Source of the DNA: Hutsoniella sourekii ATCC 700629
GTDB lineage: Bacteria > Bacillota > Bacilli > Lactobacillales > Aerococcaceae
Direction of reading: 5' to 3'
DNA length: 64,000 nt
NCBI RefSeq assembly: GCF_000518205.1
Contig: NZ_JADD01000010.1
Coordinates: forward strand, 1 to 64,000
Shown here: one piece after another, positions 30,914 through 38,695 of the stretch
How the letters are laid out: the number at the start of each line of letters is the position of its first letter
How positions within the stretch are numbered: the first letter of the stretch is position 1
Program-made: the position numbers and the translations under genes
Notes under the pieces: generated by a model
Told to the model about the DNA's origin: nothing
Databases searched by the model: none
Seen by the model: the letters and a program-made list of their open reading frames with translations, nothing else

Positions 30914-31673
30914 CTAAATCGCCGTCCAACCACCATCAATGCCAATAATCTGCCCGGTTACATAAGTAGATTCATCCGCTGCCAAGAAAACAATCGCTGA
31001 ATCTAATTCTCCAGGTTTACCAGGACGCTTCATTGGTGTTCTAATTTCAATCATTTCCCTCATGAAATCCATAGCTTCTTCATTGTTTGCTTCAGAAGCA
31101 AAGAATCCTGGCGCGAGTGCATTAACAGTCACTCCTGTTTGGGCCCACTCTGCAGCAGCAGCCCGAGTAAAGTTTACGATTGCTCTCTTAGCTGTAGCAT
31201 AATCGATAATTGGGAGCTCAACTAAGCCACCAAATCCTAAGATGGAAGCAATATTAATAATTCTTCCATAACGTGCTTCAACCATACTGGAACCAATTTC
31301 ACGAGTCATATACATTACACCATTTACATCAAGGTTTTGCGTTTTGAGCCATGCCTCATTGGTTATTTCACTCAAAGGGGCATTATTACCCCCGCCAGCA
31401 TTATTAACTAATATATGAACAGAGCCTAATTCAATCTTGATTTTTTGTATGAGCTTCCGTGATTTGGTTCACATCAGTCACATCTATAGCAATTGGCAAA
31501 ACTTCGCCCCCGCTATCACTAATAATCTCTTCTGCCGCTTTCTCTAATACCTCTAATCTTCGCCCCAAGATAGCTAACTTTGCCCTTGTTTTGAAAGGGT
31601 CTAAAGCCATTTGCTTTCCAATTCAGCTACCGCCACCAGTTACTACTGCAACACGGTTTGTTAGATCAAACAT
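30914..31673 (-). pseudogene. Decayed SDR (gluconate/fructuronate-type oxidoreductase)
   Basis: Reading leftward from ATG 31673 (behind AGGAGTGAT) gives MFDLTNRVAVVTGGGS, then a TGA at 31625-31623 exactly where the second Gly of the TGGGSGIG cofactor motif is expected. The frame is disturbed again around 31595-31575 (an ALAFAKQGAK-like stretch scrambled by paired indels). It shifts once more near 31440, after which the remaining frame continues to the stop at 30914, with HILVNNAGGG, YATAK and GQIIGIDGGW intact. At least one nonsense and one uncompensated frameshift make this non-functional. The intact gene would have been about 250 residues. Confidence 0.85.
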
Positions 31674-31852: not shown

Positions 31853-32746
31853 TTAATTAATGTTGAGTGAAAAGTTTTCTTCAATAAAAGAAATATATTT
31901 TTGTACAGCTGGGATTTGGTAAGTATTCTTAAGATAGCAGAAGTAGTAGTACCGATTGGAATCAATATCATCAATTGGGATCTGAGCTACTTCAAATCTA
32001 TCTAAATGGCTGAAATGGGGCATGATCGCGATACCAAAACCATTTGAAACTAGTCCAGCAATACTTTGATCTTCATTAAGTTCATATAAAACATTTGGTG
32101 ACAAGTTTTTTTGTTTAAATAAGGGCTCTATAACAGTTCTTGCTCCTGCATCTTTTGAAAAAAATATCTGACCGTAAACGATTGTATCAGCAAGTTTAAC
32201 TGATTGACGAGTAGCTAATGGGTGATTTAAGGGTGTAATTAGAACTATGTTTTGATTTTTAATGGGCACATAAACAATGTCATCATTATATTCATTAAGT
32301 CTTGAACAAAAGGCAACATGGTAGCGTCTATTCAATAAATTCTGCAAAATATCCTTACTTAATCCGGAATCTGTATCAAAATCTACAGAAATACCAGTGT
32401 AAATATCGAGGAATCGTCTAGTTATTCCTGGAACACTTTCGATACTTAGTTCACGTAATAGCCCTATATTTATATGTCCACCTCCATCCTTCAAGTCATG
32501 AACTTGTTTGATTGAGAACTCTAGCATTTCGATTGCAATGGAGACAGATTCATAAAATGTATTACCAATTTCAGTTAATTGAATGTTTCTGCCTTTATGT
32601 TCAAATAGTTTGACCCCTAATTCATCTTCAATTTGCTTCAAGGCGTAACTTAAGGCAGGCTGCGTGATTTTTAACTGTTGGGCACTTCTAGTGTAATGTT
32701 CATTTTCTGCTAAGACTAAAAAATATTTCAAATGGTCTAGATTCAA
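31853..32746 (-). CDS. LysR-family regulator, HcrR-like position
   Basis: LysR-type regulator of 297 residues. The HTH is at about 15-40 (HYTRSAQQLKITQPALSYALK) and the rest is the effector-binding fold. It diverges from the two flavin reductase genes with 160 bp between starts. This is the arrangement seen for the hydroxycinnamate reductase genes hcrR-hcrA-hcrB of Lactobacillus plantarum. LysR proteins usually activate the divergent operon when an aromatic or cyclic acid is bound. Confidence 0.87.
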   Translation of the reverse strand: MNLDHLKYFLVLAENEHYTRSAQQLKITQPALSYALKQIEDELGVKLFEHKGRNIQLTEIGNTFYESVSIAIEMLEFSIKQVHDLKDGGGHINIGLLRELSIESVPGITRRFLDIYTGISVDFDTDSGLSKDILQNLLNRRYHVAFCSRLNEYNDDIVYVPIKNQNIVLITPLNHPLATRQSVKLADTIVYGQIFFSKDAGARTVIEPLFKQKNLSPNVLYELNEDQSIAGLVSNGFGIAIMPHFSHLDRFEVAQIPIDDIDSNRYYYFCYLKNTYQIPAVQKYISFIEENFSLNIN

Positions 32747-32905: not shown

Positions 32906-33463
32906 ATGAAGTTAATCGCAATTGTTGGCACAGCTGCCGACTTATCTTATAATCGAAAATTACTGTATTTTATGAAAGAACATTTCAAAGACCTAGCATC
33001 TATTGATGTATGTGAAATAAAAGGCATACCAGCATTCAATAAACCCGATCCAAAAGTAGATTTGCCTGATGAGATTTCTGAACTTCAAAAGAAAATTCAA
33101 GAGGCTGATGGAATAATTTTTGGAGTACCAGAATACGATCATTCAATACCAGCAGCATTGAAAAGTGTATTAGAATGGTTAGCTTATCCTCCAAAGGCTT
33201 TAGTAAATAAGCCGGTCCTTATTATTGGTGGTTCCTATGGCACTCTTGGTGCTTCTAGAGCTCAGATTCAATTAAGACAAATTCTTGATGCGAGGGATCT
33301 AAGAGCGATAGTTATGCCATCAAGTGATTACTTCTTAGGCCATATTGCACAAGCCTTTAACGAAGAGAATGACATGGTTGACGAAGAAGCTAAAGAAGAA
33401 CTTGAAGAGTTGTTCGAACGATTTCTCAAGTTTGTCCAAACTGTTAATTCTATAGAAATGTAA
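32906..33463 (+). CDS. NAD(P)H-dependent FMN reductase (HcrA-like)
   Basis: Flavodoxin-fold reductase of 185 residues. The N-terminal phosphate-binding loop region is IVGTAADLSYNRKLL, followed by [20 protein letters not shown] and GGSYGTLGASRAQ, typical of the NADPH_dep_FMN_red family. It is expected to deliver electrons from NAD(P)H to FMN or to its larger partner encoded next. It is obviously homologous to the first 175 residues of that partner, so one arose from the other by duplication. AGGAGG before the ATG. Confidence 0.85.
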   Translation: MKLIAIVGTAADLSYNRKLLYFMKEHFKDLASIDVCEIKGIPAFNKPDPKVDLPDEISELQKKIQEADGIIFGVPEYDHSIPAALKSVLEWLAYPPKALVNKPVLIIGGSYGTLGASRAQIQLRQILDARDLRAIVMPSSDYFLGHIAQAFNEENDMVDEEAKEELEELFERFLKFVQTVNSIEM

Positions 33464-33478
33464 AGGGGGATCTTAATT

Positions 33479-35782
33479 GTGTTAAATATCATTGCTCTGG
33501 TAGGGTCTAATGCCGAGAAATCATATAATCGACTATTATTGCAATTTATTGCTAAACACTTCCAAGATAAAGTAAACGTAGAATTAGCTGAAATTAAGGA
33601 TATTCCTATGTTTGATGAATCGGATATTATCCCAATTGTGCAAGAATTAGCGGATAAAATAGAAAATGCTGATGGCGTTATTATTTCATGTCCGGAGTAT
33701 ACTAATTCATTAGCTTCAGCATTAAAGAGCGTCTTAGAATGGTTATCACATCAAGTGACGCCTTTTAAAGGAAAACCGGTTATGATTGTTGGTGCTTCTA
33801 CAAGAAGACAAGGTACATCAAGGTCTCAACTTCATTTGAGACAAGTGCTAGATTCGCCAGGATTATTTGCTAATGTCATGCCCGGAAATGAATTTTTGAT
33901 GGGGAATGCCCAAAACGCATTCGACGAAGAGGGCAACATTAAAGATTCAGGCACGATTAACTTCTTGGAAAGTTGTATTGATAATTTCATTCGCTTTGCG
34001 AGTGTTTCAAATGATCTAAACAAAGAGGAAGAAATTACATTTACCCCTGGTGTCTACCATACTACGGCTGTCGGACACAATGGTCAGTTACCGATGGAAG
34101 TTGAATTCTCAGCTGATCGGATTGAAGCGATTCGTGTCGAGAATTCCCAGGAATCGGATGGACTTTCCGATGAGGTCTTTAAGGTTATTCCACAACAAAT
34201 TATCGATTATCAAACCTTGAATATTGATACCATATCGGGAGCTTCAACCACTAGTAAAGGATTGATTGAAGGTGTCAGTGAAGCGGTGAAGCAAGCTAGT
34301 GATTCACCTCGAGCTGTGGAAGTGATTAAGGGGAGACCAAAACCTAAGAAAGTTGTTAATAATGAAATAGAAGATTTAAATTTTGATGCAGTTGTCATAG
34401 GCGGGGGAGCTGCTGGTATAGCTGCTGCTTTAAGATTAGACCAATTGGGTTATCATACGGCCTTAATTGAGAAACAAAGTTTTGTCGGTGGCGCGATCTC
34501 CATTTCTGGTGGAAACCAAGTGGTGATGGGATCACAACTTCAGAATGAATCAGGGGTTACTGATGATAGCGTTCAATCTATGATTGACGACTTCAAGGCA
34601 AATGGTAACAACGAAAACTCTGAAGAATTATTAGAGTTATTTGCTAAGGAAGTCGGCCCGACCACGGATTGGCTGAATGAATATGTGGGCATCCAATATG
34701 ATATGGATGGTGGCTTACATGTCTTAGCAGAGTATCAAAATAATCGTGAACTAGCCTATCAAAATGGTGGCCCTGGATTTGCTGCATCTGCAAGAGCCAA
34801 ATTAAGTCAATCAAACGTTGAATTATTCAAGAAAACTCAGGCAATAGAATTGTTGACCGATGACGATCATGTGACAGGCGTAATCTGTAAGCAAGATGAT
34901 GGCAAGACTCTCAAACTTCATTCTCAGGCTGTTATTCTCACTACTGGAGGATATGGAAACAATAAAGAATTTCTGACGGATGAATTACAATCTGTATTAT
35001 ATTACGGGCCTCAATCTGCCACTGGTGATGGATTAAACATTGCTTTGTCTATTGGTGCAGAAACCATCAATATGCCGTATGGAAAAATCTACCCTAATGG
35101 GATTGAGATTTCACCGGGTATCGCTAAATCTACGATTGACGGAAACTTGCGCGTTCTTAAAGAGAATGCGATATTAGTCAATCGCGAAGGAAAACGAGTG
35201 GTTAATGAAAGAGCTTCTAATAAAGACATCTTAACTGTACTATTAGAGCAAGATCCGCAAGTACTCTACCTGTTATTAGATCAGGAAGCCTTCGAAAAAT
35301 TTAGAGATGGCGTTGCAGAAGCAGGGATCACCTCTAAACAGTTGGAGGACTGGCTAGAGCAAGAAGATAGTAAATCTCCTCAATTTATAAAAGCAAATTC
35401 AATTGGCGAATTAGCTAAGAAAGCACATATTTCGAATGAAACTTTGACAAATACTGTTAATCAATTTAACCAATTCGTGCAAGGTCAAAGTGACCCAGAC
35501 TTTGATCGACCAGTTGAATACTTGCAAAAGGAAATTGGCCCGGGACCTTATTATTTAATTGAACAGAAACCAAGATTTGCGACGACTCTTGGAGGATTGT
35601 TAGTAAATGACAAGTTAGAAGTTCAAAATAAGAATCAAAGAAGTATTAAGAATCTTTATGCTGCTGGTGAGGTAGTTGGTGGTGTTATGGGGACAGATTC
35701 TCCGTCAGGAGCCAATAATGCATGGGCACTGACCTCAGGTAAAAAAGCAGCAGAATCAATAAATAATCAGTTGATAAAATAA
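33479..35782 (+). CDS. Three-domain flavoprotein enoate reductase (HcrB/fumarate reductase-like)
   Basis: A 767-residue fusion. Residues 1-175 are an NAD(P)H:FMN reductase domain. About 187-275 is an FMN_bind domain with the flavinylation motif [10 protein letters not shown] (250-259), in which Thr258 would carry covalent FMN. From about 302 to the end is a FAD_binding_2 fumarate reductase/urocanate reductase domain with [17 protein letters not shown] and the C-terminal [19 protein letters not shown]. No signal peptide or haem motif is present, so it is cytosolic. Electrons would flow NAD(P)H to FMN to FAD to an alpha,beta-unsaturated acid. L. plantarum HcrB, which reduces hydroxycinnamates, is the nearest model known to me. 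Neighbouring shikimate-pathway genes suggest shikimate or dehydroshikimate instead. Start is GTG. Confidence 0.87.
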
Positions 35783-35799: not shown

Positions 35800-36681
35800 A
35801 TGAGTAAAATTACTGAAAGAATTGACGGACATACCTATTTAATTTCATTATTAGCATATCCTATTCGTCACAGTTTATCGCCAACTATGCACAATGAAGC
35901 TTTTGCCAAACTCAATTTACCGTATGCTTACATGGCATTTGATGTGACCAATTCTGAATTGGAAGATGCAGTACAAGGAATTCGTGCACTGGGCATCCGA
36001 GGATCTAACATATCAATGCCGAACAAAGGAAAGATTATCGATTATTTAGATGAGGTGTCTGAAGGCGCAAGACTAATTGGTGCCGTAAATACTGTAACTA
36101 ATGTTGATGGAAAAGGGCATTTAGTTGGTTATAATACTGATGGTATTGGGGCGATGAGAGCATTGAGAGAAGAAGGTGTTCCAGTAGAGGGCCAAACAAT
36201 CACTATTGCAGGAGCTGGTGGGGCCGGTACGGCCGTAGCGATTCAAGGTGCACTGGATGGCATTAAAAATCTTCACATTTTTAACCAAGATGATGAACAT
36301 TGGGAAAATGCCTTATTAACGGGAGAAAAGATAAATAAAAATACAAAGTGTCACGCCACAGTTGAACGATTAGAAGATCAAGAAACATTTAAGCGCAGAA
36401 TTGCTGAAAGTAGCGTTTATATTGATGCTACAGGTGTTGGAATGCATCCTCAAGAAAACTTATCCTTAATTAATGATCCTGAAGTAATCAGAGAGGATTT
36501 AGTTGTATTTGATGTCGTATATGCGCCCGCTGAGACAAAACTATTGAAATTTGCTAGAGAAAATGGTGCAAAAAAAGCATTTAATGGGTTAGGTATGATG
36601 CTTTACCAGGGTGCTGCCGCATTTAAACTATTTTGTGGTGAAGAAATGCCCGTTGACTACATTAAAGACTTATTATTTTAA
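35800..36681 (+). CDS. Quinate/shikimate dehydrogenase, YdiB-like
   Basis: Shikimate dehydrogenase family, 293 residues. The substrate site has Ser25 and Ser27 (HSLSPTMHN), Lys76 in NISMPNKGK, Asn97 (GAVNTV) and Asp114 (YNTDGIG). The cofactor loop is [11 protein letters not shown]. The SMPNK form of the Lys motif is that of YdiB, rather than the TxPFK form of biosynthetic AroE. This favours quinate/shikimate catabolism with NAD or NADP. It would interconvert quinate with 3-dehydroquinate and shikimate with 3-dehydroshikimate. It is 17 bp behind the enoate reductase gene. Confidence 0.88.
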
Positions 36682-36711: not shown

Positions 36712-37929
36712 ATGCGTAATAATAGGTATCTTCCAACGGCTTTAAGCCTTTACTTCAACTATATTATTCATGGTATTGGAGTCATAATTATATCACAAAA
36801 CCAAAACGTACTGATGGAACAATGGAATACTGACTTACAAGGCGTTTTCAGTGTTATTGGTTGGCTAGGTATTGGGCGACTCATTGCTATTGTCTTCTCA
36901 GGTCCACTATCGGATAAATTTGGACGTAAGCCATTCGCTTACTTAGGTATGCTGACCTATATTGCATACTTCTTAGGCTTGGTATATAGTCGAAGCGTTT
37001 TCATGGCAAGTGCGTTCGCGCTAATTGCTGGACTCGCTAATTCATTCTTAGATTCAGGAACTTATCCTGCACTAATGGAATCATTTCCCAAAAATGCAGG
37101 AACTGCAAATGTATTAATCAAAGCCTTTGTTCAAATTGGTCAATTTATTTTACCATTAATAATCGGTATTATAACTACTAATAATATGTGGTTTGGATGG
37201 TCATTCGTAATTGCTGCTATCGCTCTTGTTGTCAATATGTTGGTTATGTGGCGTTTACCATTCCCAGATGGAAAAGATGGAACTGAAGAAGTCGTTGTAG
37301 AAGAAGAGCCAGAAACCCTTATTCATTATAAATCTGAAACTAAATGGTACATTGAAGGAATTGCTTTTGTCATTTATGGATTTATCTCCCAAGCTACATT
37401 CTATTTAATTTCACAAAGTTTAAATACTTATGGAGAGATGGTCGCTGGTATGTCTACTAATGCTGCCAACAGTCTGATGCAGTTCTATTCAATCGGATCA
37501 CTAATATGTGTTGCAGTTACGGCTGTGATTGCAACCAAAATTCGATCAGTTAATTTAGTTTTAGGCTATACTTTCATGTCCTTATTAGCGGCCTTGCTGA
37601 TGTATTTTATTCCTACTCCTGCGATGCTACGTATCGGTGCGGCTTTAATTGGATTCTTTGCTGCCGGTGGTGTTATGCAATTAGGGTTAACTGTCATGGG
37701 CGAGATGTTCCCTCAAGGTAAAGGGACTGTAACAAGTATATTCTATACATTTGGTTCAATCGCATCATATGCCATTCCTAACATTACTTCTCGTTTGATC
37801 AATAATTTTGGTGGCCAATCAATTATGTTATTTGAAGTTTCAATTGCAGCTATCGGATTTGTTATAGCGGTAATTATATTTATTAGATATCATCAAGTTA
37901 TAGACACGGAGAAAACGTCGCAAGTTTAA
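36712..37929 (+). CDS. MFS permease, likely quinate/shikimate transporter
   Basis: Major facilitator protein of 405 residues with 12 predicted membrane segments. The loop 2-3 signature is GPLSDKFGRKPF. A charged cytosolic loop near residues 190-210 (DGTEEVVVEEEPE) splits the two halves. In E. coli the MFS gene ydiN adjoins ydiB and aroD, and the same three functions are adjacent here. Transport of quinate, shikimate or their reduced product is therefore inferred. Confidence 0.82.
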   Translation: MRNNRYLPTALSLYFNYIIHGIGVIIISQNQNVLMEQWNTDLQGVFSVIGWLGIGRLIAIVFSGPLSDKFGRKPFAYLGMLTYIAYFLGLVYSRSVFMASAFALIAGLANSFLDSGTYPALMESFPKNAGTANVLIKAFVQIGQFILPLIIGIITTNNMWFGWSFVIAAIALVVNMLVMWRLPFPDGKDGTEEVVVEEEPETLIHYKSETKWYIEGIAFVIYGFISQATFYLISQSLNTYGEMVAGMSTNAANSLMQFYSIGSLICVAVTAVIATKIRSVNLVLGYTFMSLLAALLMYFIPTPAMLRIGAALIGFFAAGGVMQLGLTVMGEMFPQGKGTVTSIFYTFGSIASYAIPNITSRLINNFGGQSIMLFEVSIAAIGFVIAVIIFIRYHQVIDTEKTSQV

Positions 37930-37945
37930 AATGGAGGATGAATAT

Positions 37946-38695
37946 ATGAATACCGTTACTGTAGGAAATTGTACCTTTGGTGAAGGGCAACCCAAAATCA
38001 TTGTTCCAATTGTTGCTACTAATAAAGCCGATGTGCTTGCTGAGGTTAATAATGCTAGTCAAGTAAATTGTGATTTAATTGAATGGCGCATTGATCATTT
38101 TGATCAAGTTCTAGAAGATGGGGCCGTTGCTTCACTTAGCAAGGAAATTAAAAGTCAGACCCAGCTTCCCCTATTAATTACCTTTCGTTCAAAACGAGAG
38201 GGTGGAGTCAAAGAGTTATCAGATGATGGGTATATCAATCTCTATCATCAAATCATTGAAGATGGTCAATTCGATTTAATTGATATTGAATTATTTATGT
38301 CTGGTGATGTGACATCACTAATTAAAGCAGCAAAAGATAAGGGAATCAAAGTTATCATGTGTAACCATGACTTTAATGCTACACCAGCGGAAGCGGAAAT
38401 TATTAATCGCTTAACTGAAATGGAAGATAAAGGTGCTGATATTTGTAAAATTGCGGTCATGCCAAATGATTCAGATGATGTATTAACTCTCTTAAGTGCT
38501 ACTAATAAAAGATATAAAGAAGCTAATGCACCCCTAATTACGATGTCAATGGGACAACTAGGAATGATTAGTAGGGTAAGCGGTGAGCTTTTCGGTTCAT
38601 CGGCTAGCTTTGGAACTGTAAATGAAGCGAGTGCTCCTGGACAGTTACCTGTATCTTCCTTGAGAAAAATTCAGAATGATTTGTCATTAAATTAG
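37946..38695 (+). CDS. aroD: Type I 3-dehydroquinate dehydratase
   Basis: Class I dehydroquinase of 249 residues interconverting 3-dehydroquinate and 3-dehydroshikimate through a Schiff base. Catalytic His141 is in CNHDFNATP and Lys168 in CKIAVMPND; LITFRSKREGG binds substrate. ATG 37946 is taken because GGAGG (37933-37937) lies 8 bases upstream; an ATG at 37931 overlaps that site. In this operon it would link quinate oxidation to dehydroshikimate. Confidence 0.93.
   Translation: MNTVTVGNCTFGEGQPKIIVPIVATNKADVLAEVNNASQVNCDLIEWRIDHFDQVLEDGAVASLSKEIKSQTQLPLLITFRSKREGGVKELSDDGYINLYHQIIEDGQFDLIDIELFMSGDVTSLIKAAKDKGIKVIMCNHDFNATPAEAEIINRLTEMEDKGADICKIAVMPNDSDDVLTLLSATNKRYKEANAPLITMSMGQLGMISRVSGELFGSSASFGTVNEASAPGQLPVSSLRKIQNDLSLN

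Follow-up and report, generated by a model that had tools for sequence, protein, structure and literature searches.

Results

The reductase locus

The window analysed here is a stretch of 64,000 nucleotides from Hutsoniella sourekii ATCC 700629 (contig NZ_JADD01000010.1, positions 1 to 64,000), taken from a genome of 2.07 Mb that is 99.57% complete. It contains a gene for a three-domain flavoprotein reductase in a cluster with a regulator, a second flavoprotein, two transporters and two genes of aro type:

31853 to 32746, minus strand: LysR-type regulator, transcribed divergently from the reductase operon; 38–40% identical to the LysR beside the reductase in Aerococcus relatives
32906 to 33463, plus strand: stand-alone FMN_red protein of 185 amino acids, HcrA-like and the probable partner subunit; its nearest relatives are HcrA-type genes beside HcrB-type genes
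33479 to 35782, plus strand: 767-amino-acid three-domain flavoprotein reductase (767 codons, from a GTG at 33479 to the stop at 35782)
34226 to 34246, plus strand: ApbE flavinylation motif DTISGAS (motif D-x-x-[S/T]-G-A-[S/T]), residues 250–256; expected acceptor Ser256 (codon 34244 to 34246)
35800 to 36681, plus strand: AroE-type shikimate/quinate dehydrogenase, with the genome's sole Shikimate_dh_N match
36712 to 37929, plus strand: MFS transporter, conserved in the cluster (61–75% identical in L054, L058 and L121)
37931 to 38695, plus strand: AroD, the sole type I 3-dehydroquinate dehydratase encoded in the genome
38753 to 40159, plus strand: CitMHS-type transporter, with a 62% identical protein at the equivalent position in the relative G015

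Adjoining the LysR gene on the minus strand (about 30914 to 31670) is a gluconate 5-dehydrogenase-like SDR that carries a frameshift and a stop; this truncated gene was rejected as a pathway member because it is a pseudogene. No TIM barrel was seen among the eight annotated genes of the window.

Pfam divides the 767-amino-acid protein into FMN_red (residues 3–145, E 1.7e-33), FMN_bind (residues 199–271, E 1.4e-11, 45.3 bits against a cut-off of 22) and FAD_binding_2 (residues 303–741, E 4.1e-52), which bears out the proposal of an earlier note, made from the letters of this DNA, that an NAD(P)H:FMN reductase module is fused to the protein. By eye the N-terminus leads directly into the FMN_red fold and shows no signal peptide, in agreement with the cytosolic location given there. 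An AlphaFold2 model has a mean pLDDT of 81, the FMN_red part being poor (mostly 40–60), for which reason contacts between domains are not read from it. The same note placed the entire electron chain in one polypeptide, which overlooks the separate FMN_red gene; as this second gene lies immediately upstream, at a distance of 15 bases, the enzyme probably has two subunits. The note also passed over the adjoining aroE, MFS and aroD genes, which have a bearing on the substrate.

According to passages of a 2025 review (PMC12052999), ApbE recognizes D-x-x-[S/T]-G-A-[S/T] and links FMN to its final residue, accepting serine and preferring threonine. Because it is the seventh and last motif residue that is modified, the acceptor expected here is Ser256, and the Thr258 named in the earlier note, whose ten quoted residues stand at 250–259, was a misreading by two residues. 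The motif is not a chance occurrence, since a curated FMN_bind match encloses it and every one of the 54 rows of the clade described below has Ser or Thr in the acceptor column. A search of the genome for apbE returned exactly one match (C4:73975–74814, PF02424, E 9.6e-77); it lies outside the window, which, as had been stated, contains none, and it encodes a cytosolic-type protein of 312 amino acids whose N-terminus by eye has no signal peptide. The prediction of a covalent FMN survives this search because the sole apbE of the genome is present and without a visible signal peptide. That the motif goes unused and the FMN domain carries a loosely bound FMN is quite improbable: the acceptor is a serine, whereas ApbE prefers threonine, and apbE is not adjacent, but serine occupies this position in 28 of the 54 clade rows, among them the four Enterococcus loci where apbE immediately precedes the reductase, and the genome's only ApbE looks cytosolic. 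The 767-amino-acid protein is read as a soluble enzyme that very probably carries a covalent FMN, with Ser256 as the predicted acceptor.

Other ApbE-motif proteins in the host and its family

Nine FMN_bind domains are found in the host genome altogether. The host proteins L010, L011 and L012 (host genome G000, contigs C5, C6 and C11) have two each by Pfam, with a third motif in L012; PAS_10 is present in two of the three, no signal peptide was seen by eye, and their motif-bearing tails resemble those of a group of FMN_red-PAS_10 proteins. The latter, of about 400–450 amino acids, are encoded on C5 of the host genome (L004:847–2097, minus strand) and at family loci L036–L045 and L145–L174, and carry at the C-terminus a low-complexity tail in which ApbE-like motifs (D-x-x-[ST]-[GSA]-A-[ST]) are repeated in tandem. 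Of the 27 loci that could be read (3 of 30 were unread), 26 have at least two motifs in the tail, with none among the first 360 residues; an ApbE gene lies within 3 kb of 42 of 50 of these genes (in 42 of 49 genomes), and FMN_bind is absent from the three proteins tested. Judged by sequence, the tails of these proteins look disordered and seem to act as natural tags for several FMN groups; a literature search on such tails found nothing.

Aromatic pathway genes in the host and its relatives

Profile searches for chorismate synthase, DHQ synthase and shikimate kinase found none of the three in the host genome, and aroD and aroE are present once each genome-wide, both in the reductase cluster. 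With these three enzymes absent, the aroE and aroD of the cluster cannot serve ordinary aromatic biosynthesis. Chorismate synthase is likewise missing from G012, G013, G015 and G028, the host's four closest relatives within its family, in which the reductase sits with the only aroD and with an aroE. Among 23 genomes tested, all nine that lack chorismate synthase have aroE and aroD at the reductase, and the 14 that possess it have both genes there in three cases and aroD only in one; as the nine span three families, they do not count as nine independent cases. The absence of DHQ synthase is no proof by itself, because it was likewise not found in G085, in which chorismate synthase is present. 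Shikimate kinase hits in G012, G028, G080 and G084 were left out, as they cover 23–46 profile positions in frames of 223–241 amino acids; that of G080 is just above the cut-off and is still not counted as a kinase.

Distribution and phylogeny of the reductase clade

A profile made from five sequences identified 49 loci in named genomes, all of which were used, from Enterococcus, Gemella, Streptococcus, Aerococcus, Eremococcus, Paenibacillus, several clostridial and erysipelotrichial lineages and Duodenibacillus. The flanks contain aroE and aroD at ten of the 49 and aroD alone at two further loci, and apbE lies within the fetched flank at seven, directly upstream of the reductase in four Enterococcus cases. 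The N-terminus is OYE-like in 21 of the 49 and FMN_red in none. A survey at the level of the order found the clade in 12 of 395 genomes, with aroD at nine of the 12 and both aroE and aroD at eight within about 8 kb; the three without aroD are family f3 loci (G095, G274 and G390). Five genomes are common to this survey and the family search, and some of the surveyed Enterococcaceae loci may duplicate those among the 49. Within the host's family, aroE and aroD lie beside the clade reductase in five of five members and near none of 18 control loci (0/14 HcrB-type, 0/4 other FMN_bind-FAD), where 'HcrB-type' is a label given by architecture rather than by comparison with the Lactiplantibacillus plantarum sequence. 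In a search of a plasmid collection no clade member was among the matches listed, the best match having about 32% identity.

The clade comprises 54 rows (SH-aLRT 99), of which 51 are distinct because of three same-gene pairs (L018/L051, L019/L058 and L021/L064), and is separate from the HcrB-type clade, to which the FAD domain of the window protein is 24–28% identical; the tree comes from a quick search and has long branches, that of the window protein among them. The window protein falls in a 27-row cytosolic subclade (SH-aLRT 99); apart from one group of 12 Enterococcus rows, each of its rows (15) has aroE and aroD, and the aroE/aroD label changes twice on the tree against a mean of 13.8 changes when shuffled. 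No aroE or aroD was found in the fetched flanks of these 12 Enterococcus rows, of three Paenibacillus rows or of any clostridial or erysipelotrichial row. As many clade rows are thus without these genes, the substrate could differ among them, or the aro link could be particular to certain lineages.

Other genes recur around these reductases. An SDR is found in aro-linked clusters (nine of 49 loci), as is an AP_endonuc_2 TIM barrel (seven of 49; L051–L053, L056, L059, L060 and L064), which in the one protein compared is a weak match to the 3-dehydroshikimate dehydratase QuiC. At four Lachnospiraceae loci (L070–L072 and L092) the reductase follows a protein of 882–904 amino acids with FMN_bind and FAD domains (Pfam on L092), and apbE is upstream in three of the four. 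Duodenibacillus, which belongs to another phylum, has two loci (L088 and L089) in which a type I AroD, with a twin-arginine-like N-terminus, and the reductase each start with a signal-like sequence, an AP_endonuc_2 TIM barrel has a twin-arginine-like N-terminus as well, and aroE was not found.

Active site and fold

Passages of PMC7921117 describe Arg560, Arg411 and His520 of UrdA as contacting the substrate carboxylate, as conserved through the fumarate reductase family and as essential for UrdA. The equivalent columns, Arg544, Arg402 and His504, were fixed by phmmer alignment to flavocytochrome c3, and at Arg402, His504 and Arg544 the window protein has Asn581, Ala701 and Ser741. The replacement extends through the clade: Arg402 is Asn in 53 of the 54 rows and Tyr in one, His504 is Ala and Arg544 is Ser in all 54, and the His365 column is Tyr in all 54. 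Both arginines and the histidine are kept in 14 of 14 HcrB-type and four of four other FMN_bind-FAD proteins of the family. The columns of Tyr538, Lys550, Arg699, Ala701, Asp740, Ser741 and Asn746 are each invariant in 54 of 54 rows, the window protein included, and Tyr419 is also among the newly invariant residues. The altered site suggests that electrons go to ring acids rather than to cinnamates or fumarate. That an enzyme whose substrate is an acid should lose the carboxylate arginines is odd, and our guess is that Arg699 or Lys550 might be the replacement anchor.

In fold comparisons the nearest of the structures listed was urocanate reductase UrdA (Z 45.3, rmsd 2.4, 445 residues), with flavocytochrome c3 fumarate reductase at Z 38.5. 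The description of the protein as an enoate reductase in the earlier note holds in this broad sense of fold and fails at the active site, where the carboxylate clamp and proton donor are missing. Ketosteroid and cyclohexanone dehydrogenases come next (Z 34–36), and the loss of the classical reductase triad might lead one to regard the protein as a ring dehydrogenase of that kind, working in the oxidizing direction. We consider this very improbable, as the fold is nearer to the urocanate and fumarate reductases (Z 37–45), and the NADH-input modules (FMN_red here, OYE-like at 21 of 49 loci) together with the FMN relay suit reduction. Because the classical clamp and proton donor are absent, the substrate class has to be sought in the neighbourhood, which points to ring acids of the quinate/shikimate type.

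A chimeric reductase

The two halves of the window protein have different relatives. Compared in 20-residue bins, residues 1–180 are 37–75% identical to HcrB-type proteins (14 rows) and 10–29% identical to the protein's own clade, and from residue 321 onward the values are 5–52% and 32–92%, respectively. In trees of the separate domains, the N-terminal module groups with HcrB-type and related FMN_red modules (support 100/99) and FMN_bind groups with the clade (10-row set, support 98/87). The identity profile and these two trees put the junction at, or shortly ahead of, the beginning of FMN_bind. By these sequence comparisons, the reductase is a chimera of an HcrB-type input module and the catalytic half of the aro-linked clade, and this genome is so far the only one in which an HcrA/B-type FMN_red input stands on that catalytic half; the equivalent reductase of G015 and G028 is without any N-terminal module.

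The HcrB-type ancestry of the module, and the set of parts (LysR, small FMN_red protein and FMN_red-FMN_bind-FAD protein) that matches HcrB-type loci, would be expected of a hydroxycinnamate reductase of the HcrB/Crd kind, beside which the aro genes are incidental or serve the breakdown of chlorogenate (caffeoyl-quinate). Such an assignment appears improbable, however, as the FAD domain has low identity and lies in a different clade, all three triad residues are replaced, aro genes are at none of the 14 HcrB-type loci, and the host has an HcrA/HcrB-type pair of its own on contig 14.

Discussion

There are known precedents for cytosolic covalent-FMN reductases, for the three-domain architecture and for the arrangement in two subunits; what is new here is the aro link, the re-made active site and the module swap. 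From the domains, motif, genomic apbE, gene cluster, lack of a biosynthetic use for aroE and aroD, changed site and chimeric build, we infer a covalent flavin, an order of electron transfer, a substrate and a direction. On balance we favour, by a modest degree, a cytosolic enzyme, flavinylated by ApbE and dependent on NADH, that reduces a hydroaromatic unsaturated acid; the likeliest substrate is 3-dehydroshikimate or shikimate. Both compounds are alpha,beta-unsaturated ring acids, of a type reduced by enzymes of this fold. In the scheme that we propose, the MFS and/or CitMHS transporter would import quinate or shikimate, which the AroE-type and AroD enzymes would convert to 3-dehydroshikimate or shikimate. 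NADH would reduce the FMN of the FMN_red layer, formed by the fused N-terminal domain and probably dimerized with the 185-amino-acid partner, and electrons would then run via the Ser256-bound FMN of FMN_bind to FAD. Hydride transfer from FAD to the C1=C2 bond of the ring would regenerate NAD+ for fermentation, so that the ring acid would act as an electron sink.

The neighbourhood cannot separate shikimate, 3-dehydroshikimate or a later intermediate. A reductase of such an intermediate, for example an unsaturated acid arising by dehydration of a reduced hydroaromatic, could draw on the SDR and TIM barrel found at many aro-linked loci, but in the window cluster the SDR is a pseudogene and the TIM barrel is missing from the annotated genes, and we regard this as rather unlikely. 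Between the two compounds of the favoured scheme we lean towards 3-dehydroshikimate, on two points that we infer: in Duodenibacillus, where AroD and the reductase bear signal-like sequences and aroE was not found, it is 3-dehydroshikimate that would be formed outside, and the disappearance of the arginine proton donor makes better sense if the substrate is an enone.

Plant food commonly contains quinate and shikimate, and an electron sink of this kind, if true, would matter for fermentation and gut chemistry. A search of the open literature, subscription papers lying outside its scope, found no gene for bacterial quinate/shikimate reduction. As a wider and more tentative proposal, which we hold possible rather than probable, the clade may supply the missing reductase of quinate/shikimate fermentation: a covalent-FMN lineage with a re-made site that reduces 3-dehydroshikimate, at once enone and enoate, as would fit the change of Arg to Asn and Ser and the signal-bearing AroD of Duodenibacillus. 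Its catalytic half would then have been plugged into several inputs, namely OYE-like, HcrA/B-type FMN_red, stand-alone cytosolic and extracytosolic.

Comparison with known systems

Crd of Vibrio ruber carries covalent FMN. The window enzyme resembles HcrAB and Crd in having a large, NADH-fed subunit that combines flavin domains with an NAD(P)H-binding FMN_red domain, a small FMN_red partner and a LysR regulator, and differs from them in that its FAD domain comes from another clade, the triad is replaced and aroE, the MFS gene and aroD are in the cluster; HcrAB is described in part of PMC10295242 as the hydroxycinnamate reductase of L. plantarum. With UrdA and flavocytochrome c3 it shares the fold of the FAD domain, and with full-length UrdA also, by prediction, a covalent-FMN domain (passages of PMC7921117), whereas the Arg/His/Arg residues for carboxylate binding and proton transfer are missing in the clade. 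It likewise has features in common with the soluble fumarate reductase of Klebsiella pneumoniae. The N-terminus of that enzyme is OYE-like. This is the input of 21 of the 49 clade loci, whereas the input of the window protein is FMN_red, and the Klebsiella substrate is of fumarate type. Both are cytosolic reductases with covalent FMN, which is predicted for the window protein; that of K. pneumoniae is flavinylated by a dedicated cytosolic ApbE (passages of PMC12052999). The proposed likeness in physiology is to lactic acid bacteria that, as fermenting organisms, use ring acids as electron acceptors. Lactobacilli reportedly reduce quinate and shikimate, an observation attributed to Whiting and Coggins in 1971.
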